NCBI RefSeq assembly: GCF_003576375.1
Contig: NZ_QWGE01000001.1
Location: 310,001 to 374,000 of the forward strand
Source of the DNA: Pontibacter oryzae
GTDB taxonomy: Bacteria > Bacteroidota > Bacteroidia > Cytophagales > Hymenobacteraceae
Reading direction: 5' to 3'
Length of the DNA: 64,000 nt
The notes beneath the pieces are model-generated. The model was not told the DNA's origin. It searched no databases and saw only the letters and a list, made by a program, of their open reading frames with translations. Positions 10,836 to 20,666 of the stretch are shown one piece after another. Within the stretch, counting starts at the first letter, position 1. Each line of letters starts with the position of its first letter. The position numbers were made by a program, and so were the translations under genes.

Positions 10836-12143
10836 ATGCTAAAAACTCTACTAAGCTTTTGCCTACTCTTTTACAGCATCTCTGGCTTTGCTCAAAACCT
10901 GCACCTTAAAAACGTAAACATTATAGATGTTGAGTCCGGAAAGTTACTCCCACAAAAAGAGATCGTGGTTACGGATGGCAAAATTGCATCTTTTAAATCA
11001 AAGAAGCGAAAAGTTAAGAACTATCAGGTAATTGATGGGCAAGGCCGCTATGTAATACCTGGGCTATTTGAAATGCATGCGCATATCGGTATACCTAACA
11101 GAAATTATTTGGATACCTTCCTTAAATATGGCATTACCGGCGTGCGGGTTATGGCAGGTAGTGAAGGGGTGCTTGCCTGGAGAGATTCTATAAGTATGGA
11201 CCTCATGAGCGGCCCAAATTTATTTATTGCTTCACCCTTATATGATGGCAACCCGCCACTTTGGGCAGACAACCACAGTGGCCCGGTACTAGAAAACATA
11301 AGCCAGGTTGAGCGTTTAGTGAAGGCGCATCAGCAAAAAGGGTATAACGAGATAAAGGTTTACAATCGGTTGCCTGCGGAAGTTTACTTGGAAATACTCC
11401 GGGCCGCTGATGCGGCAGGCATGCGTGTTAGTGGGCATATTCCCTACACCTTAACGAGTAACGATTTCGGAGACCCGCGCCATACATCTATTGAACACCT
11501 GGATGGATTTATCCAGTTTGCCACTTCGCAGTCTCCGGCTATGGAACAGGGAAAAGAGGAGTCTGCACGTATGTCACTTTACCCTTACTATGATAAAGCT
11601 AAGCTGGCCCCTTATTCAAATCGGATAAAGCAAAACAAAGTGTGGTTATGCCCAACACTGAGTCTGTACGGAAATTTTAACAGCGCAGAAGTGCATGAGG
11701 AATTAAACGAGGTAAAGCATCTAGCGCCAACTAATGGGTTAATGGGTTGGTGGTTAAGCTTACCTGAGCAAGTTGGTGAGAGCTTCAAGGTAAAATTCGA
11801 TTTTAACAGGCAGGTGCTGCAAGATCATTTCCTAGACTATGCAGACCACATATTGGCTGGAACTGATTCTCCTAACCCTTATAACTTACCTGGTCTTGCC
11901 TTGCACCACGAGTTGCAACACCTTACAGAAGCTGGCTTCTCAAATGCAGCAGTCCTAAAAATAGCTACCTATAATGCTGCTAACTACCTTGGCGTGTTGG
12001 ATATGCACGGAACAGTTGCCATTGGAAAATATGCAAACTTGCTGTTACTAGACGGAAACCCGCTGGTAGATATCCAGAACACTAAAAAGATACACCAGGT
12101 GCTGGTAAAAGGGCAGATAAAAACAGCTAAAATTAACTATTGA
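10836..12143 (+). CDS. Exported amidohydrolase (imidazolonepropionase/prolidase-like)
   Basis: A 435-aa metal-dependent hydrolase. I start it at ATG 10836 because MLKTLLSFCLLFYSISGFAQ is a signal peptide, while the start at 10785 would prepend 17 extra residues. The amidohydrolase fold shows in order: an N-terminal beta-sandwich with LKNVNIIDVESGKLLP, the metal-binding pair HAH in EMHAHIG, His in SGHIPYT, His in IEHLDGF, and the catalytic Asp in AGTDSPNPYNLPG. A C-terminal strand segment (YANLLLLDGNPLVDI) returns to the small domain. This group cleaves C-N bonds in cyclic amides or dipeptides; the substrate cannot be deduced. The signal peptide places it in the periplasm. It is monocistronic. 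Confidence 0.85.
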   Translation: MLKTLLSFCLLFYSISGFAQNLHLKNVNIIDVESGKLLPQKEIVVTDGKIASFKSKKRKVKNYQVIDGQGRYVIPGLFEMHAHIGIPNRNYLDTFLKYGITGVRVMAGSEGVLAWRDSISMDLMSGPNLFIASPLYDGNPPLWADNHSGPVLENISQVERLVKAHQQKGYNEIKVYNRLPAEVYLEILRAADAAGMRVSGHIPYTLTSNDFGDPRHTSIEHLDGFIQFATSQSPAMEQGKEESARMSLYPYYDKAKLAPYSNRIKQNKVWLCPTLSLYGNFNSAEVHEELNEVKHLAPTNGLMGWWLSLPEQVGESFKVKFDFNRQVLQDHFLDYADHILAGTDSPNPYNLPGLALHHELQHLTEAGFSNAAVLKIATYNAANYLGVLDMHGTVAIGKYANLLLLDGNPLVDIQNTKKIHQVLVKGQIKTAKINY

Positions 12144-12399
12144 TAAGCGAGGTTTGCTTAGGAGTACTGCTGTTAATTAAACTCCACTTAAAGTGTAAAA
12201 AGGATATACACCCCTTTTATAAGCCTTATAATTTATGAAGCTTATGTGGCAATAAGTCTTACAGTTACCTTTATATGGTATTAATAGTTGCATCGGCTTT
12301 TTATATGCGAAGAAGAAGTAAAATTTTACGACTATATATTTAAGTTGGCTTCGCCATATTACAGCCATGCCCATTTGTTAAGTTTTATACTCAGAATAG

Positions 12400-12771
12400 A
12401 TGATGGATAAATCCTTAATTAGCCATAAACAGCTGCTTTGGCTGTTAGTGTTTCTCTTGCTTCCACTGGCTAGCTTTGCCGAAGGTGGTGTAAAAGCAAT
12501 TGGTGCTTTAACAGAGCTGTTCGTGTACCTAATTTGGTTTCTGGCTTTCATCTCTTTACTGCTATCTTTGATCTGGGGAAAGAAGCATTCCGAAGCAAGG
12601 GTTATTGTCTACTTGCTTTGTGGCTTTTCATTTTTGACCTGGTGGATTGGTTCATTTTTTCTCGGTGGAGCACTAAGTGCATCTTATAACTTAGCTAACT
12701 TGGTTTCACTTGGTATACTGGTGATGACGAGAGTTCGAAAAGAGAGCAAAGCACCATCAAGGCATACCTAA
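12400..12771 (+). CDS. Small membrane protein of unknown function
   Basis: A 123-aa protein that I do not recognise. Four hydrophobic segments are visible: 13-27 (possibly a signal peptide ending SFA), 37-60, 68-88 and 95-110, followed by a basic tail KESKAPSRHT. The next small membrane gene lies 85 bp downstream on the same strand, so the two may share a transcript. Base composition is AT-richer than the housekeeping parts of the window, consistent with accessory DNA. Confidence 0.6.
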   Translation: MMDKSLISHKQLLWLLVFLLLPLASFAEGGVKAIGALTELFVYLIWFLAFISLLLSLIWGKKHSEARVIVYLLCGFSFLTWWIGSFFLGGALSASYNLANLVSLGILVMTRVRKESKAPSRHT

Positions 12772-12783
12772 ATTTACTTGATG
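12755..12783 (+). terminator. Possible weak terminator
   Basis: CATCAAG at 12755-12761 pairs with CTTGATG at 12777-12783 and is followed by CCTTTTT. The stem is only 7 bp and starts inside the stop region of the small membrane gene. Confidence 0.35.
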
Positions 12784-12856
12784 CCTTTTTAGCCTTCACT
12801 AATAGGTCATTTTACTAGAGCCATACTTGTACTAGAAAAAGATATTACCAGCCCCT

Positions 12857-13189
12857 ATGTATATACTGTTTTACATTTATGCACTTCTGTTTCTATCGTT
12901 GCTAGGTACGGCCTTTGCGACCTTTGTTAACCTGATTCTCTACTACATCATTGATAGTGTAGATGTAGAAAATAGATTGAGCCTTTATACCCATACTAAA
13001 AATACATTTCTAGTTGCATGGCTCGCTAACATAGTGCTGTTTATCATTATGATCTGGCATTCTATAGGTACCCGTAAATTTGAAATGGTTGTTGGCCTGG
13101 AAGGGCAGGTTGTATTTTGTGTGGTAACTTCCATAATAGCCTTTATTAACTACATGAGGCTTAGAGAACCAATACTGTTTGAAGAGTAA
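12857..13189 (+). CDS. Small three-helix membrane protein of unknown function
   Basis: A 110-aa protein with predicted membrane helices at about 3-31, 49-69 and 82-101 and no recognised motif. Its stop codon (13187-13189) is followed by further reading frame in the same phase up to 13411, which may be a separate decayed gene. The AT-rich setting suggests accessory DNA. Function unknown. Confidence 0.55.
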   Translation: MYILFYIYALLFLSLLGTAFATFVNLILYYIIDSVDVENRLSLYTHTKNTFLVAWLANIVLFIIMIWHSIGTRKFEMVVGLEGQVVFCVVTSIIAFINYMRLREPILFEE

Positions 13190-13411
13190 CTCCAGCGTAT
13201 TCTAAAGAATATCATTAATACCGGGACAACTTTACTTTCAACCTCAATAGTGCTATGCACAGCGTTTAGTTTAAGAGCACAGAGTTTATTTTCTGTTCTT
13301 TATCTAAATGAAGAAACAGCTGTACACAACGGGGTGCCTAAGCAAATAACTGAAGTTAGAACTTTCTACAACTCCAAGGGAATAGAAGTAAAGCAGGACA
13401 TCACCGAATAA
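13190..13411 (+). pseudogene. Possible remnant of a small exported protein
   Basis: After the stop at 13187-13189 the same frame stays open to a TAA at 13409-13411. It reads like a hydrophobic export signal (GTTLLSTSIVLCTAFSLRAQ) followed by about 40 polar residues with EVRTFYNSKGIEVKQDITE. No ATG precedes the hydrophobic stretch; only GTG or rare codons could start it. I interpret it as a gene that lost its start or was truncated. A non-canonical start is the alternative. Confidence 0.3.
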
Positions 13412-13906
13412 TGGCTATAAGTAATTGCTTGTTATAGCTTACTTTTGAAAATCTCGCTTCTGAGGCAATATTGCTATGTCTAAACAGGTGGTAATTGCGT
13501 TTGAACTTCACCCACTCCGATTAATAATTAAGCGCTAAGATTTGTTAATCGTGTTATTATAACTAGATCAGTGTGAATACTTATTATAATCAATTTTATT
13601 TCATTTTGCTTTAAGCAAAACAATCATCTCTCTAATAAAAACCTGATAAACACCAATAGTTTTGAATTTAAATCATTGACTATCCTCTACGACAAAAAAG
13701 ATAGATCCCTATATTCTTTGCCTTTCTATATCCTTTGCTTTGAGGCATTGTGGTAGTCATTGGCTAAATAAAAATTAAATTTAATCATAAATAAGATTAA
13801 CTATAAACAAAATAAAATTAAATTCGATATACATATAATGCAAAATAATTCAGGATTAATCTTACAATACTGATGAGATTAAGCTTTATTTTAAAAATTT
13901 ACGCGT
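13412..13906. other. AT-rich intergenic region
   Basis: About 500 bp, very AT-rich, especially 13740-13890, upstream of the crystallin/lectin gene. It presumably contains that gene's promoter, but I could not pick a convincing -7 element. Confidence 0.4.
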
Positions 13907-14584
13907 ATGAAATTTCAAATTATTACCTCAGCATTATTAGTGTTGGCCCTATTATGCTTTAGCGCCAATGCTCAGATTTTAACAGTTTATAAAGATTTTG
14001 ATTACGAAGGCACTACTCAATCTTTTGACGAAGGCTTTCATAAAGGCTATTTTAAAATCGGGAATGACGTTATCAGCTCACTGAAAATAAAACCAGGTTA
14101 CAGAGTTGTTCTGTATGAGCATGGCATAGGAAATGGCAAGGAACTAACCTTGTATAGCGACACCCCTAACCTGAGCAATTTTGATTTCAACGATATTACG
14201 TCTAACCTTAAAGTAGAAAAGGTAACCAATACCTTGGCTGCTGGAGAAACGTTGGATACCGAACAAAGATTATACTCTGAGAATGGCGAATACTACTTGG
14301 TCATTCAAACCGATGGTAATCTATGTGTATATACTGCAACTAATGCCTTTAAATGGTGCTCAATGGCACATGGCTTTGAAGGTGCTAAACTCAGCATGCA
14401 GACTGATGGCAATTTAGTAGTATACGATGGCACAAACGAGTCAAAGTGGGCTTCTAAAACAATGGGCTATTTTGATCAAAAGTGGGCAAATACCAATAAC
14501 AAACCAGTAAAATTAGTGTTGGAAGATGATGGTACGTTGAATCTTTACAATGCTTCCGGAGATGCTGTATGGACTAACGAATAG
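13907..14584 (+). CDS. Secreted beta/gamma-crystallin-like plus bulb-type lectin protein
   Basis: A 225-aa protein with signal peptide MKFQIITSALLVLALLCFSA. Residues about 25-105 look like a beta/gamma-crystallin domain: a Greek-key start TVYKDFDYEG, the calcium-site motif NDVISS (pattern N/D-N/D-x-x-S/T-S), and a second, imperfect copy NDITSN at the end of the other Greek key. Residues about 112-225 look like a bulb-type (monocot mannose-binding) lectin domain: three beta-repeats with QTDGNLCVY, QTDGNLVVY and EDDGTLNLY, close to the QxDxNxVxY sugar-binding pattern. The third copy has Glu for Gln and Thr for Asn and may not bind. A calcium-stabilised secreted sugar-binding or defensive protein is inferred. 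It is monocistronic and ends at a very strong hairpin. Confidence 0.75.
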   Translation: MKFQIITSALLVLALLCFSANAQILTVYKDFDYEGTTQSFDEGFHKGYFKIGNDVISSLKIKPGYRVVLYEHGIGNGKELTLYSDTPNLSNFDFNDITSNLKVEKVTNTLAAGETLDTEQRLYSENGEYYLVIQTDGNLCVYTATNAFKWCSMAHGFEGAKLSMQTDGNLVVYDGTNESKWASKTMGYFDQKWANTNNKPVKLVLEDDGTLNLYNASGDAVWTNE

Positions 14585-14589
14585 GTATA

Positions 14590-14654
14590 AAAAGAAGCAC
14601 CTAGCGCGAGAAACGGCGATGAAAGCACCGTTTCTCGCGCTAGGTGCTTCTTTT
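14590..14654. terminator. Long perfect hairpin terminator
   Basis: The 27-bp perfect stem 14590-14616 / 14628-14654 has an 11-nt loop and A and T runs at its ends, starting 6 nt after the lectin stop. Confidence 0.85.
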
Positions 14655-15378
14655 ATTTAGCCCTCTAAACACAGCGAAAGCAGACCAGACTGCATCATGG
14701 CACCTAATAAGTTAAAATTAGTATAGCTCTTGCTCATGCGTTTCATCAGATTCGTCTTGTTATTGTCCGGCGCAATTCCTGCCGCTCCCTGCCAGACCAA
14801 CTTACTGGCTATTTATGAATAAGGCGCAGCGCTGGCGGTCTCCGCTTGGTAGCGGCCAACTTCCACTTCACCACTTTTCCTGGAATACCACCGCAGCCTC
14901 GCATAAAACATGGCGCACCGGTTAAAATGTTGTTTTTGCAGGCTCGTTGTTTCTGTATCGCTGTCTTATGCTTATGCCTGGTGAGAATAAAACCAATAGT
15001 GGCTAATCAGGTTAAGGTTTTCGCCTAATTCAGTCTTCAGCACAGGTATTGCTGGGCAGGCAAAAAGTATGACCACCAGAACCTAGCCCGATAATTCAAT
15101 TTTTGTATTGATACAGGTGCTCGCTATCGGTTATAGTGCATAACCTATACTTCCCATTATTCTTTTGGAGTGATACCTTATTTCAAAGATTCTACTTTTA
15201 TAAACTAAAGGTATACTTACCTTGCCTTTAAAAACAACTTTACTGGCAATGAAGCACTTATATAAATACAGTTGCAACACAGGACTTAAACCGCATTACT
15301 GGCACTTCAATTGCTTGGCACAAATACAGATATATTAGTTTAGTTTTATTTACCTTTAGAGGTTAATTGGCAGAAGTA
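14655..15378. other. Gene-poor region before the stressosome operon
   Basis: About 720 bp in which no reading frame is convincing. A plus frame at 14846-15028 is low-complexity and unlike a protein. A minus frame over about 14655-14810 reads LVWQGAAGIAPDNNKT and resembles coding text but is cut by stops. It may be a degraded gene or mobile-element scar. AAGTATR words occur at about 15065, 15148, 15211 and 15374. Confidence 0.35.
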
Positions 15379-15386
15379 TAATTTTG
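15379..15386 (+). promoter_or_regulatory. Putative -7 element of the stressosome operon
   Basis: TAATTTTG at 15379-15386 matches TANNTTTG, 28 bp before the rsbR ATG. The -33 region (TTT at 15355-15357) is weak, so the site is probable but not certain. Confidence 0.5.
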
Positions 15387-15413
15387 CCATTCAAATCTCA
15401 TTAAATAAGCACG

Positions 15414-16286
15414 ATGAACAACACAGCTCAATTGTTACAGAATAACAAGAAGAAAATTCTGGAAAACTGGATGCAGAACCAGCTAGCCGATGAAGCCCTG
15501 CGCGATGATCTGATCTCGAACGAGGAATTGCGCCGCCAGTCGGATGAGCTGCTGAATGGCTTGGCAACTGCCACTGCCTCCGGCAATGTTGAGAATACTT
15601 ACGCGCCAGAGTACGAAACCGTAACTGAGATCCTTTCAGATATTTCGATTACACGTGCGCGCCAAGGCTTCACCCCGCGCGAAACAGGCATGTATGTGCT
15701 TAGCCTGAAGCAAGCTATCAATCAGGTACTTGAAGAGAAACTATCAGACCAGCCAGAACAGCTCTACAAAGAGTTGAGCATTATAAACAAGTTACTGGAC
15801 AACCTGAGCATGATTACTTTCGACACCTATATTAAAGGCCGCGAAGAAGTAATACTGCGCCAAAACGATGAGATAAACGAAATCTCTACGCCGGTTATAC
15901 GTGTATGGGAAGGTATACTTGCTCTTCCAATCATCGGAACGCTCGATAGCGCACGCACACAGGTGGTGATGGAAAACCTGCTGTTAGAGATTGTTAACAC
16001 AGGCAGCAGCATCGCCATACTTGATATCTCCGGCGTGCCAGCTGTAGACTCCTTGGTAGCACAGCATTTGATCAAAACTGTTAGCGCCACGCGCCTAATG
16101 GGTGCTGAGTGTATCATTAGTGGTATCCGTGCCGAGATTGCGCAAACCATTGTGCACCTGGGTATCGACCTTTCGAACATAAAAACAAAGGCTACACTTG
16201 CAAACGCGTTGCAGCTTGCCTTTAGCATGCGTGGCGTTGAGGTAAAGAAAACCGCCAGATATACAGGCCTTAACCTGAATAAATAG
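15414..16286 (+). CDS. rsbR: Stressosome co-antagonist RsbR
   Basis: A 290-aa RsbR-type protein. Residues about 5-150 form an all-helical sensor module of the RsbR N-terminal type (KKILENWMQNQL ... GFTPRETGMYV). Residues about 155-275 are a STAS domain with DISGVPAVDSLVAQHL and GIRAEIAQTIVHLGI. In Bacillus subtilis RsbRA the corresponding segments carry Thr171 and Thr205, phosphorylated by RsbT. Here the first equivalent is probably Ser in VDSLV, and no Thr is obvious at the second site. RsbR and RsbS build the stressosome shell that holds RsbT until stress. It is the first gene of a tightly packed operon with rsbS 20 bp downstream. The signal sensed by the helical module cannot be told from sequence. 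Confidence 0.92.
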   Translation: MNNTAQLLQNNKKKILENWMQNQLADEALRDDLISNEELRRQSDELLNGLATATASGNVENTYAPEYETVTEILSDISITRARQGFTPRETGMYVLSLKQAINQVLEEKLSDQPEQLYKELSIINKLLDNLSMITFDTYIKGREEVILRQNDEINEISTPVIRVWEGILALPIIGTLDSARTQVVMENLLLEIVNTGSSIAILDISGVPAVDSLVAQHLIKTVSATRLMGAECIISGIRAEIAQTIVHLGIDLSNIKTKATLANALQLAFSMRGVEVKKTARYTGLNLNK

Positions 16287-16306
16287 TAGTAGTAGAGAAG
16301 TGAGCC

Positions 16307-16717
16307 ATGGATAGAATCCCAATTTTAAAGATGGGGCAGTTTTTGCTCGTAACCATACAAGTGGACCTCTACGACAGACTAGCCCTGAACCTAGAGAATG
16401 ACCTAATCAATATGGTGAGCAAGACCGGTGCCCGCGGTGTGCTCATCGATATTTCTGCAGTAAGTATCGTTGACTCATTTATGGGTCGAATCTTGGGCAA
16501 TATCGCCTCCATGTCTCGTATCATGGATGCTGAAACGGTAGTAGTGGGCATGCAGCCCGCTGTGGCTATTACCCTCGTTGAGTTAGGCCTTACCCTGCAA
16601 GGGGTATACACCGCCCTCGACGTTGAGAAAGGCATGGAACTACTACATGATAAAATCGGCACCATAGAGCACCCAGAAGACGAAGAAGAGGAGGCGCCGC
16701 ATGATGATATTGACTAA
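16307..16717 (+). CDS. rsbS: Stressosome scaffold STAS protein RsbS
   Basis: A 136-aa single STAS domain with an acidic tail. DISAVSIVDSFMGRI carries the Ser that aligns with the RsbT phosphorylation site of RsbS (Ser59 in B. subtilis). With RsbR it forms the icosahedral stressosome core, and phosphorylation releases RsbT. The 3' end overlaps rsbT by 17 bp, which points to translational coupling. The acidic extension after residue 120 (HPEDEEEEAPHDD) is an addition to the core STAS domain, and its codons include the overlap with rsbT. Confidence 0.92.
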   Translation: MDRIPILKMGQFLLVTIQVDLYDRLALNLENDLINMVSKTGARGVLIDISAVSIVDSFMGRILGNIASMSRIMDAETVVVGMQPAVAITLVELGLTLQGVYTALDVEKGMELLHDKIGTIEHPEDEEEEAPHDDID

Positions 16718-17114
16718 AGACACGATGCAAATCGTGCGCGAGCAAGATGTAGTACCATTTAGGAACCGGGTTAAGGAATTTGCCACCAAGATTGGCATGA
16801 GCCTGGTAAACCAGACTAAATTGATTACAGCTGCCAGCGAATTAGTGCGTAATATGCTTAAATATGCTAACGGAGGTAAAATTTTGCTGGAAATTATCAG
16901 CAAAAATGCCCAAACTGGCGTAAGGTTAACCTTTATAGATGAAGGGCCTGGTATTACTGATATTAAGCAGGCAATGCAGGATGGCTTTTCTACCGGTAAA
17001 AGCCTCGGGCTTGGTTTACCGGGCGCTAAACGCCTTGTAAACGAGTTTGACCTTAAAAGCAAACCCGGCGAAGGAACAACTGTTACGGTTACGCACTGGA
17101 AAAATGGACGTTAG
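16701..17114 (+). CDS. rsbT: Stressosome serine/threonine switch kinase RsbT
   Basis: A 137-aa GHKL-type protein kinase. N-box ASELVRNMLKYANGG, G1 DEGPGITD and G2 STGKSLGLGLPGAKRLVNEF are intact, as in RsbT, which phosphorylates RsbS and RsbR and on release activates a downstream partner. In Bacillus that partner is the phosphatase RsbU; no rsbU is present here, and the likely output is the two fusion proteins that follow. Start codons at 16701 and 16704 (tandem ATG) are both possible. It overlaps rsbS by 17 bp and the next gene by 11 bp. Confidence 0.93.
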   Translation: MMILTKDTMQIVREQDVVPFRNRVKEFATKIGMSLVNQTKLITAASELVRNMLKYANGGKILLEIISKNAQTGVRLTFIDEGPGITDIKQAMQDGFSTGKSLGLGLPGAKRLVNEFDLKSKPGEGTTVTVTHWKNGR

Positions 17115-18168
17115 TACCCATATTCGCTTATTAATACCTGATAAATCTTATGCTAGCATAGCCAAGCGCGAAATTAGTAAAATGGCTGATGAGGCTGGTA
17201 TGGCACCAGCAGACATTGGCAAGCTAAACATCGTGGTGTCCGAGATGACATCAAACCTGGCAAAACACTCGAAAGAAGGCGGTGAACTGCTTGTTCGGCT
17301 AATTGGCCAGGTAGGGATTGAAATAATATGCTTGGATAAAGGCCCGGGAATGCCCGAACCACAGCGAATGCTGGAAGACGGTGTTTCGACGTATGGCTCT
17401 GCTGGTGAGGGCTTGGGGGCCATAAAAAGGCAGTCCGATGTCTTTGATATGTTCTCGCAAGTTGAGGTTGGCACTGTTATACTGTCGCGGGTGTATAAAT
17501 CTGACTTTAACCTACAGCGGCATCTTCTGGAAATGCGCCATGAGATTGGCTATGTAATGGTTGCTAAACCAAACGAAACGCTCTGCGGTGATGGCTTGGC
17601 TATTATCCAGAAAGGCGCTGAAACATACTTGCTCGCTCTCGATGGGCTAGGGCACGGCGCTCATGCCAACGAGGCAGCCCGGGCTGCCGTAGAAGCATTT
17701 AGAGCCTATGCTCCGCATCATCCAGTTGATATGCTGCGTCATGTGCACCAGCAGATCCGGCGCACGCGCGGCGCCGTTGGCATGGCCGTAAATATCAGTA
17801 GCAACAGCCACAAAATCTCTTACTGTGGCATTGGTAACATAAGTGGCAAGCTGTATGCGGCTGATATATCGCTTACAGGCTCACCGTATAAAAACATTAT
17901 CTCTTACAACGGGATACTTGGGCATAATATTCCGGGTACACTAAATAACCAGCAATTGGACTGGGGCCGCAACAAAATGTTAATTCTACATTCTGATGGC
18001 CTCAGATCAAGGTGGGAGCTTACCAAATATCAATCGTTAAACCGACATCACGCCACAACTATCGCTGCTGTTTTATACAAAGAGCAGAGTCGCCAAACCG
18101 ACGATACGATGGTCTTGGTATGTAAAGCAAAGTATAAGCCCGATGCACCGAAGTATAATCAAGATTAA
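17104..18168 (+). CDS. RsbT/RsbW-like ATPase fused to PP2C (SpoIIE/RsbX-type) phosphatase
   Basis: A 354-aa two-domain protein. I start at ATG 17104, which gives the normal short overlap with rsbT; the frame is open to 17047 but the extra residues do not belong to the fold. Residues about 1-135 are a GHKL anti-sigma-type ATPase (N-box VVSEMTSNLAKHS, G1 DKGPGMPE, G2 GSAGEGLGAIKRQ). Residues about 150-354 are a PP2C-type serine phosphatase with the metal-site motifs LALDGLGHGAHANEA, HSDGLRSRWE and QTDDTMVLV. The phosphatase half corresponds to RsbX, which resets the stressosome by dephosphorylating RsbS and RsbR. The attached ATPase could dock on the STAS proteins or supply an opposing kinase activity. 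The reset role is inferred from its place in the operon. Confidence 0.85.
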   Translation: MDVSTHIRLLIPDKSYASIAKREISKMADEAGMAPADIGKLNIVVSEMTSNLAKHSKEGGELLVRLIGQVGIEIICLDKGPGMPEPQRMLEDGVSTYGSAGEGLGAIKRQSDVFDMFSQVEVGTVILSRVYKSDFNLQRHLLEMRHEIGYVMVAKPNETLCGDGLAIIQKGAETYLLALDGLGHGAHANEAARAAVEAFRAYAPHHPVDMLRHVHQQIRRTRGAVGMAVNISSNSHKISYCGIGNISGKLYAADISLTGSPYKNIISYNGILGHNIPGTLNNQQLDWGRNKMLILHSDGLRSRWELTKYQSLNRHHATTIAAVLYKEQSRQTDDTMVLVCKAKYKPDAPKYNQD

Positions 18169-19489
18169 CATCAATAATGAGCTTGATGTAGTACTTGCTT
18201 ATAAGCGCTCTATGCAGCTTTCTGAACGCTTGGGCATGCCATTGGCCAACCAAACTAAATTTGCAACTGCCGTTTCTGAGATTTGTAGAAATGTGGTTGA
18301 GTATGTTGGCAACGGCTCGATACGGTTCGGCCTTAGCACGCATGGGGGCTCTAATTACCTTTTGGCTCAGATTGTTGACCGTGGCCGTGGCATCGGCAAC
18401 CTCGAAGATATTTTAGCTAACCGCAACTATGACCGCAGCGGGCGCGGCTCAGGCATCCTAAACTCAAAAAAGCTTGTTGAGAACTTTGAGATTGAAAGTT
18501 CTTTTGAAAAAGGGACGGAGGTAAAACTCTACAAAAGATTACCGAATCATGTTCCGGGCATTACCAAATCAATGCTAGAGAGCTGGGTGAATGAGTTTGA
18601 TCAGGAATCAGACATTTCGCCTTATGCCGAAATAAAGAAGCAAAACATGCAGTTGCTCGAGTTATTGGAGCAACTGCGGATGCGCAACCTAGAGGCAGAG
18701 CAGCAACTCAAGGAAATCCAACGGCTTAACAGGCAATTGCAGCAATCTAACCAGGAAATCAACCTCCTGCTGGAAGAGCGCGAAAAGAAAAACGAACTGT
18801 TGCAAAACGTTAACCAAAACCTGGATGCGTTTGCGCATACGGTCTCGCATGACTTGCGTGCGCCCCTGCAAAACATTAATGGCTTAACCTCTGCGCTGGA
18901 AGCATGCCTGGAGTCGGAGCACTTGGCAGAGGCGCAGCACATGCTCCCGTTGCTGCGCCAGCAAACGCATAAAATGGACCGCCTTATAACTGGCATACTT
19001 GCCTACTCATTGGCAGGGCACCATAATATCCAAAAGAAGGTGGTAGACATGGCTCCTCTTCTGCATCAGGTTATCACTTCCATAAATGTGCCGGCTAGCT
19101 TTGTGGTTAGAGTACCTCAGGAGTTACCTGTGCTTTACACCCAGGAAATCTATCTTTACCAGGTTTTCAGCAACCTTTTGAGTAATGCCATTAAGTATCA
19201 CGATCAGCCAGAAAGCGGCCAGATTCAGATATTTTATGAGCAAGGCCGGGAAAAGTTAATATTTTCGGTGATGGATAATGGACCTGGCGTTGCGCCGGAA
19301 ATGCAGCCCCAGATTTTTAGCATGTACGAATCAGGCAACTCCTTTAGCCGGGCCGACAGTACTGGACTTGGGCTATCAATCGTAAAGAAAATTGTAGAGG
19401 AAAAGGGCGGCAAAGTATGGCTTGAATCCAAAGGCCGGGGTAGCCGCTTTTGCTTTACCTGGCCTGCCTCTGAACTCGTAAAGGAATAA
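18143..19489 (+). CDS. RsbT-like ATPase fused to a sensor histidine kinase (stressosome output)
   Basis: A 448-aa protein carrying two GHKL ATPase domains. Residues about 1-135 are RsbT-like: AVSEICRNVVEYVGNGS, G1 DRGRGIGN and G2 GRGSGILNSKKLVENF, with NQTKFATA closely matching RsbT's NQTKLITA. A linker and coiled coil (about 160-225) follow. Then comes a histidine kinase core with His236 in HTVSHDLRAPLQNI, N-box NLLSNAIKY, G1 DNGPGVAP and G2 STGLGLSIVKKIV. There is no membrane segment. The RsbT-like part probably binds the stressosome as RsbT does, coupling release to phosphotransfer. The start overlaps the previous gene by 26 bp, and the stop lies inside a hairpin shared with the convergent response regulator, its most likely partner. 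Confidence 0.85.
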   Translation: MHRSIIKININNELDVVLAYKRSMQLSERLGMPLANQTKFATAVSEICRNVVEYVGNGSIRFGLSTHGGSNYLLAQIVDRGRGIGNLEDILANRNYDRSGRGSGILNSKKLVENFEIESSFEKGTEVKLYKRLPNHVPGITKSMLESWVNEFDQESDISPYAEIKKQNMQLLELLEQLRMRNLEAEQQLKEIQRLNRQLQQSNQEINLLLEEREKKNELLQNVNQNLDAFAHTVSHDLRAPLQNINGLTSALEACLESEHLAEAQHMLPLLRQQTHKMDRLITGILAYSLAGHHNIQKKVVDMAPLLHQVITSINVPASFVVRVPQELPVLYTQEIYLYQVFSNLLSNAIKYHDQPESGQIQIFYEQGREKLIFSVMDNGPGVAPEMQPQIFSMYESGNSFSRADSTGLGLSIVKKIVEEKGGKVWLESKGRGSRFCFTWPASELVKE

Positions 19490-19550
19490 ATAGCATAAAG
19501 CAAAAGCGGCGCTGCAGATATTGCAGCGCCGCTTTTGCTTTATGCTATTT
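19488..19550. terminator. Bidirectional terminator containing both stop codons
   Basis: Stem 19488-19516 pairs perfectly with 19522-19550 (29 bp) around a 5-nt loop. It overlaps the last bases of the kinase stop (19487-19489) and contains the whole response-regulator stop (19545-19547), so the two convergent genes share one compact 3' element. Confidence 0.85.
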
Positions 19551-19997
19551 ACTAAAAAACTCTGCTAGAATTTCTCGGATATCATACTTCGTAAGCGCTT
19601 TGGAATAATGCTTGCGTACCTTGCTGTAGTGCTTTAGCCGTTCCAGGTCATAAAAGCTGGCCGATGACGTCAGCATTAAGATAATTACAGGGTCGGCTGC
19701 ATCCATGTTGTGCTTCTGGTACTCATCCAAAAACGAGAAGCCATCCATAACAGGCATCTTTATATCCAACAGGATAAGATCGGGCCTGGCAAAGGCTGGG
19801 TCTGGCTCTGGGCCATATGCTTTGCTCATGTACTCCATTGCCTCCTTGCCGTTTTTTAGGACCTTATACTCTTTAGCCACCTGCATCTCGCGCATCAAGC
19901 GCTCATTCAGGTAGTTTGTAGTATCATCGTCATCAACCAGTAACACTAAGTCCAACGGAAAATTATAAGGGGTAGTTAATGAGTTCATATTTGCCAT
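19545..19997 (-). CDS. Single-domain response regulator (CheY-like receiver)
   Basis: A 150-aa receiver domain with no output domain. The acidic pocket LLVDDDDTTNYL, phosphoacceptor Asp78 in LILLDIKMPVMDG, conserved LTSS (Ser/Thr) and Lys in HYSKALTKYD are present. Such regulators act by protein contact or as phosphorelay intermediates. Convergence with the stressosome-linked histidine kinase across a shared terminator makes that kinase its probable partner, but separate transcription units leave this as inference. The second ATG (residue 4) is an equally possible start. Confidence 0.92.
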   Translation of the reverse strand: MANMNSLTTPYNFPLDLVLLVDDDDTTNYLNERLMREMQVAKEYKVLKNGKEAMEYMSKAYGPEPDPAFARPDLILLDIKMPVMDGFSFLDEYQKHNMDAADPVIILMLTSSASFYDLERLKHYSKVRKHYSKALTKYDIREILAEFFSK

Positions 19998-20369: not shown

Positions 20370-20666
20370 ATGGATTCATACCCTCTAAAGCCAGAACACA
20401 TGCGGGCTCCGGACCACCTTACCAAAGGCGAAGTGCAGAAGAGCCTGGATGAGTTGGATAGCAAAATCAAAACGTTAAAAGCGCGCGTAAACGCAACCAC
20501 AGCTGACTCTAACAACACGTACCAGGAACACATTGCCGGCCTGGAGCGAAAAAAGGAGCTGATCCTCCAGAAGATGGGCGACCCAAGTAACGAGCAGCAG
20601 CATTGGAACGACCTTCATAGCAACATCAACGACTTGCATAAAGATGCAGACAATATGATCAGGTAA
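20370..20666 (+). CDS. Small hydrophilic coiled-coil protein of unknown function
   Basis: A 98-aa soluble protein, highly charged and predicted all-helical, with a heptad-like stretch at about 20-70 (EVQKSLDELDSKIKTLKARV). No family recognised. Small helical proteins of this type are often stress-induced, but nothing here proves it. It is monocistronic and shares a hairpin with the convergent aldehyde dehydrogenase. Confidence 0.6.
   Translation: MDSYPLKPEHMRAPDHLTKGEVQKSLDELDSKIKTLKARVNATTADSNNTYQEHIAGLERKKELILQKMGDPSNEQQHWNDLHSNINDLHKDADNMIR

Follow-up and report, generated by a model that had tools for sequence, protein, structure and literature searches.

How does a stressosome deliver its signal in a bacterium that has no SigB-type sigma factor? 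The question is posed by a 64,000-nt stretch of Pontibacter oryzae DNA (the window; bases 310001-374000 of contig 1 in a 4.23-Mb genome of nine contigs), where rsbR, rsbS and rsbT are followed in one operon by genes for two fusion proteins, a phosphatase (X) and a histidine kinase (HK), each beginning with an RsbT-like ATPase domain (X-N and HK-N), and where the gene for a single-domain receiver (REC) converges on HK. The best score in the whole genome against TIGR02980 is 114.1 bits, where the cut-off is 234.35; the absence of sigB, claimed by the original prediction for the operon, thus extends to the whole genome, which does not carry a SigB general stress pathway. We read the operon as a stressosome of the RsbRSTX type with a histidine kinase as its output, and give this reading a probability of roughly 0.55. 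The operon has a conserved gene content and order, its domains have clear homologues and its catalytic motifs are intact.

All five operon genes lie on the plus strand and adjoin one another tightly from rsbR to HK. RsbR (15414..16286, 290 aa) joins an RsbRD_N sensor domain (PF14361, 97.9 bits) to a STAS domain; RsbS (16307..16717, 136 aa) is a STAS scaffold whose profile matches RsbS chains in the PDB (E 1.6e-38); RsbT (16701..17114, 137 aa) is a switch kinase (HATPase_c/_2) with intact ATP motifs, and the presence of all three in one operon makes this an RsbRST module. X (17104..18168, 354 aa) couples its RsbT-like ATPase domain (HATPase_c_2) to an RsbX-type PP2C (SpoIIE/PP2C); it directly follows and overlaps rsbT, the arrangement that defines an RSTX module. 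HK (18143..19489, 448 aa) runs from HATPase_c_2 (residues 1-134) through a helical linker to HisKA (His236) and HATPase_c, and REC (Response_reg, 150 aa), in which D22-D24, D78, T110 and K133 are invariant in 24 aligned sequences, window included, is encoded on the minus strand at 19545..19997. Between HK and REC, which run towards each other, lies a perfect inverted repeat of 30 nt (19487..19551, no strand) that scores as a terminator on both strands. The six genes, their order, domains and convergence had been predicted in this form, and their coordinates were confirmed except that we moved the start of X: it is likely the ATG at 17104, giving an 11-nt overlap with the rsbT stop, whereas the X alignments began at 17107 and so lacked the Met. 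That overlap is 11 nt in 24/24 orthologous loci and the rsbS/rsbT overlap is 17 nt in 22/24, the window having the same value in both cases; repetition of these lengths across loci argues that the gene boundaries are not due to chance.

The genes also travel together, as a comparison of gene order in related genomes, proposed with the original prediction as a check, makes clear. A full-length fused kinase is found in 23/24 other genomes of the same genus (57-75% identity) and in 1/14 genomes from other families of the order (G028, 49% identity), and RsbR-RsbS-RsbT-X-HK is present at all 24 of these loci, with REC convergent in the 23 same-genus loci and absent at G028. The genus exception is G008, where the kinase is reduced to a frameshifted piece beside an intact REC frame (L056, contig 42) and no RSTX was found in the 16 kb fetched; in G225, another same-genus genome, there was no RsbS match. 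Across the order, profile A3 detects RsbS in 63 of the 390 genomes sampled and in 21 of 129 genera. When these hits and the genus set were scored with profiles built in this analysis, the five-gene set was complete and in the same order in 75 of 79 loci; the four incomplete ones (L067, L093, L109, L111) all reach contig ends, and the L111 N-domain also fell under the score cut. Left out of the 79 were L056 and L057 (both G008) and L112, a second, decayed operon copy in G200, which lies about 70 kb from the intact L079 on a 103-kb contig, possibly a plasmid. In the phylum sample RsbS was found in 14/395 genomes, including the window's own and G053, already counted. The same-class loci outside the order are all complete (6/6); in 5/6 other-class loci the PP2C has no RsbT-like domain, and the models used found no RsbT-like kinase domain. 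A locus from another class of the phylum (L119, G587) has two histidine kinases after X, the first beginning with receiver-like sequence and the second bearing an RsbT-like N-domain, possibly an intermediate arrangement.

RsbS matches of about 70% identity were also found on plasmids of Deinococcus radiodurans, Sphingomonas, Variovorax and Caballeronia. The D. radiodurans plasmid MP1 has the same five genes, with a kinase that ends in a receiver and is followed by a receiver-kinase. Scanning named genomes with the kinase N-domain confirmed at least 553 loci, the best 80 of which form our named set; because its members were gathered with a search pattern that lies in helix 2 of HK-N, an intact N-box is built into the set, which can therefore give no test of degeneracy. 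The five-gene operon is complete in 72/80; six of the others reach contig ends (L133, L148, L193, L199, L176, L185) and two look eroded (L170, L201). By record title, complete loci come from Sphingomonas, Bradyrhizobium, Methylobacterium, Herminiimonas, Massilia, Povalibacter, Geobacter, 'Deltaproteobacteria', cyanobacteria such as Microcoleus, Bryobacteraceae, Gemmatimonadales, Planctomycetota, Rokuibacteriota and Candidatus Binatia, hosts which we take to span many phyla. HATPase_c_2, HisKA and HATPase_c all match in the 74/74 named-set kinases that have a stop codon in the fetched stretch, and 70/74 of these carry a fused receiver; PF13581 also matches in 74/74, a whole-protein count that may include the kinase's own ATPase domain. 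Completeness at 75/79 and 72/80 loci bears out the claim that the kinase belongs to the stressosome operon.

The three RsbT-like domains of the operon are distinct lineages. A tree of 110 domain sequences from several phyla (128 columns) places X-N (37 rows), HK-N (37) and RsbT (36) each on one side of a branch, with supports of 100/99, 100/95 and 97/64, while shuffled labels on that tree need about 30 changes. Three separate groups, each crossing phyla, indicate that the copies parted before the sampled phyla acquired or inherited the operon; with so few columns, the inner forks and the placement of long rows (L110, also L119) are unsure.

Their ATP sites have fared differently. RsbT keeps all seven ATP-motif positions in 94/94 loci (76/76 in the named set), so the kinase function appears to rest with RsbT, and X-N keeps them in 87/89, with one change in the other two (76/78 in the named set, two rows gapped). 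In the window HK-N (18143..18544, plus strand) retains N-box E46/N50 and G1 D79/G81/G83, and it matches PF13581 in two stretches, best at 30-131. Among 85 kinases, HK-N has one position changed in two and is degenerate in 31, from several families of the window's class together with the Caballeronia plasmid copy. The degenerate domains have lost the G1 glycines (31/31) and mostly the N-box Asn (28/31), and segment 83-95 with the ATP lid is missing in 94-97% of them, yet the kinase-core motifs are intact in 31/31. In intact and degenerate HK-N alike, conservation holds at most positions of helix 1 (N12-R22), of helix 2 (Q37-R49) and of the SPYxEIK junction, with some class-specific letters such as Y20 versus H20. 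The kinase itself is an orthodox histidine kinase, having His, N, G1 and G2 motifs in 85/87 sequences, the other two rows being partly aligned. When a domain drops its nucleotide motifs in several families yet keeps its fold, its place and its two helices, the best explanation is that it serves as an interaction module, and we suggest that HK-N is mainly a docking or partner-switch domain. RsbT residues R19, R23 and N24 have been implicated in RsbU binding (PMC12143880), and their numbering would put them in helix 1.

Structure models are consistent with this. The fold was modelled on a degenerate relative (L083; mean pLDDT 85.9, pTM 0.76) rather than on the window's HK-N, and a shared fold is no proof of function; the model best matches RsbW/SpoIIAB-type chains (Foldseek E 2.0e-06), superposes on RsbW with a VIA Z of 15.0 (rmsd 1.8 over 109 residues), reaches middle scores with SiaB (Z 11.9) and a domain of LvrC (Z 10.4), and scores at most 8.1 against ordinary histidine-kinase ATPase domains. 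The notion that HK-N simply duplicates the ATPase domain of the kinase core was rejected, given this closest fold and the PF13581 match. In the model of the window's HK (mean pLDDT 85.7, pTM 0.49) the linker runs without a break into the phospho-acceptor helix, as one predicted helix (residues 160-257) that includes His236; it is entered through the junction motif SPYAEIKKQN (from residue 159; motif and long linker helix together at 18617..18808, plus strand) and offers a plausible path for a signal. Possible natural X::HK fusions (800-aa frames at L045, L051 and L052) were discarded, there being a stop between the genes.

The upstream partners and the phosphatase keep their functional residues. 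In the window, the phospho-acceptor columns hold S179 and S213 of RsbR and S57 of RsbS. The RsbS column is Ser in 169/170 sequences (1 gap), RsbR site 1 is Ser in 163/169 (5 Pro, 1 gap) and RsbR site 2 is Thr/Ser in 167/169 (2 Glu). We take these columns to be the phospho-sites from the literature together with variant PDB chains; T176 of RsbR had been considered and was dropped for S179, as the variant chains mark the neighbouring D-S/T column. The PP2C metal-site residues (DG/DG/DD) are present in 89/89 X proteins, and the nearest solved chains to the X phosphatase are 3zt9 (SpoIIE-type) and RsbX 3w40.

From these observations a mechanism can be proposed, in which docking, release, the direction of effect and phosphotransfer are steps that we infer from the sequence. 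RsbR and RsbS would form the STAS core, which RsbT would phosphorylate on stress, and X would serve as an RsbX-type resetting phosphatase, recruited there through the RsbT-like domain that it carries. HK may dock on the STAS core, or on the partner surface of RsbT, through HK-N, and docking would hold it in one state; phosphorylation of the core, or competition with RsbT, would then change or release HK. The change might run along the unbroken linker helix as far as the phospho-acceptor helix, altering phosphotransfer to a receiver, which would probably be the convergent single-domain REC here and the kinase-fused receiver in most of the other-phylum kinases examined.

Several points weigh against this proposal. 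The case is built on sequence; in the related Vibrio vulnificus system, binding between VvRsbT and VvD1 could not be detected (PMC9237108). On a Variovorax plasmid (L127) the kinase after X has no HK-N, and it keeps the linker motif before HisKA. All seven ATP-motif positions of HK-N are intact in the window and in 52/85 kinases; ATP binding is therefore kept in many lineages, and pure docking may be too simple. In other families, convergent REC is found at 0/30 of the loci where the sequence extends 600 nt or more past HK, the genome has 8 REC-family matches at E<=1e-12 (REC included), one of them close to REC, and the REC frame stays intact in G008 without an intact kinase gene or any RSTX in the 16 kb fetched, so REC may serve other kinases.

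The last of these points make it possible, if less probable, that the link between stressosome and kinase is real while the convergent REC is not the acceptor, or not the only one. Adjacency is limited to three genera of one family (f1): 33/33 loci of the window's genus (g1, window included), 7/7 of g18 and 1/1 of g20, with 0/2 in g17; as a partner, REC would thus be lineage-specific. Against this alternative, REC is kept at 41/43 f1 loci, and G018 retains it though the other downstream neighbours tested are gone there. The receiver fused to 70/74 named-set relatives supports kinase-to-receiver output in general. The kinase output is probably a receiver, then, and the convergent REC is probably the phosphotransfer partner of HK here, though the lone REC remains a candidate because of its close paralogue and its survival in G008. 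The wiring to a lone receiver, as first put forward, holds as far as receiver output and the constancy of REC within the genus go, and falls short in that REC adjacency does not extend beyond one family.

A less likely alternative, though one with a precedent, is that RsbT acts in trans to order the HK linker as it does with RsbU, HK-N being an auxiliary or inhibitory RsbT copy that binds the same site. RsbU is switched on when RsbT orders a coiled-coil linker, and shared linker control has been suggested for histidine kinases (PMC12143880). The HK linker is strongly conserved (mean top-residue fraction 0.86 over LNxELxDTNRGVVALYAELD in 74 kinases), and the Variovorax kinase retains it without HK-N. 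The window kinase, however, has no RsbU_N match at E<=0.01, and HK-N exceeds all other kinase regions in conservation in alignment A11 (0.68 versus 0.52-0.57, helix 2 being biased by the search pattern) and again in A10, while in the genus set A1 it only equals the phospho-acceptor region (0.77 and 0.78).

We consider it improbable that HK-N is an active second Ser/Thr kinase acting on RsbR/RsbS or X, with HK feeding back on the core. The intact ATP motifs of the window and most other kinases would suit such a role, but the G1 glycines and mostly the ATP lid are lost in 31/85, where domain, operon and kinase core persist, and no RsbT is degenerate (0/94).

Mere co-transcription of the kinase, with the stressosome output lying elsewhere, e.g. 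in a U-V-W-like trio on contig 4 or another of the sigma factors behind the genome's 20 sigma70_r2 matches, is least probable of all, given the kinase-RSTX linkage across many phyla (72/80 in the named set) and the homology of the kinase N-domain to RsbT. The trio itself (L217, ~260892-261836) consists of a PP2C (686 aa), a single STAS protein and an RsbW-like ATPase, with no sigma factor gene beside it in the 3.6 kb fetched, and might be another stressosome target. The predicted absence of rsbU, rsbV and rsbW accordingly applies to the surroundings of the operon and not to the genome.

Links from a stressosome to a two-component system have already been published for Vibrio, and the window operon is a widespread variant of that kind. 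In Vibrio vulnificus an RsbR-RsbS-RsbT-RsbX operon without sigB is likewise followed by two-component genes (VvD1/VvD2; PMC9237108, PMC10014275), and deletions of RSTX and of the downstream kinase give similar phenotypes (PMC10014275); in the light of that work, the remark that such wiring has little experimental background was an understatement. The Vibrio RsbR is a haem-binding globin sensor and its RsbX a single-domain PP2C, whereas the window has RsbRD_N (PF14361) and an X with an added RsbT-like HATPase_c_2 domain, so it is not an RSTX module in the sense of PMC9237108 (single-domain RsbX, globin-coupled RsbR). No RsbT-like domain on VvD1 is mentioned in the accessible parts of PMC9237108 and PMC10014275. 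The former reports varied genes downstream of RSTX modules that have a single-domain RsbX, HisKA/REC phosphorelays among them; in the part available, it does not settle how the signal is passed on when RsbU_N is lacking.

Other known systems share parts of the arrangement. The window has homologues of RsbR, RsbS and RsbT of the Bacillus subtilis RsbRST-RsbU-RsbV-RsbW-SigB pathway, with phospho-acceptor columns kept and an RsbX-matching PP2C, but its genome has no SigB-type factor, its kinase has no RsbU_N match, and the candidate output of the operon is a histidine kinase. RsbU_N histidine kinases, which occur in stressosome operons (PMC12143880), and RsbU_N GGDEF proteins beside rsbT similarly offer a non-sigma effector with an N-terminal domain and coiled-coil linker (PMC12143880, PMC9237108); those effectors carry the RsbT-binding domain RsbU_N, while the window kinase carries an RsbT-like domain itself. 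HK-N and X-N match PF13581 like the GHKL ATPases RsbW, SpoIIAB and RsbT, and degenerate HK-N models as RsbW; they differ from these in being fused to a histidine kinase or phosphatase and, for HK-N, in the frequent decay of the ATP site. In the open-access literature searched, in so far as its text was available, no paper was found to describe RsbT-like domains joined to the phosphatase as well as to the kinase.

We tentatively propose an ancient, phylum-crossing class of stressosome in which RsbT was copied twice within the operon as an adaptor, to a resetting phosphatase and to a histidine kinase, the kinase copy being able to dock without ATP, and in which partner switching would directly gate a two-component phosphorelay. 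The operon suggests how stressosomes could control two-component signalling in place of a sigma factor; a downstream kinase with an RsbT-family domain offers a concrete way, open to testing, for a stressosome to reach a phosphorelay, and a means of approaching stressosomes where SigB is lacking, as in Deinococcus radiodurans.

The surroundings of the locus show some further features. Measured in 4-kb steps along the window, GC content falls to 0.385 at 12001-16000 and otherwise stays between 0.456 and 0.514. Upstream of rsbR, 13907-14584 encodes a protein with weak B_lectin and beta/gamma-crystallin matches, below Pfam cut-offs. Beyond REC, at 20370-20666, lies the gene for a small stress response protein of the sll1863 family (scoring above the NCBIfam cut-off), with a homologue in 21/24 fetched relatives. 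In 8/24 of these (L044, L047-L053) an insert of about 4 kb separates REC from the sll1863-type gene; the sole insert examined, that of L048, encodes a TonB-dependent receptor and a PepSY_TM protein.

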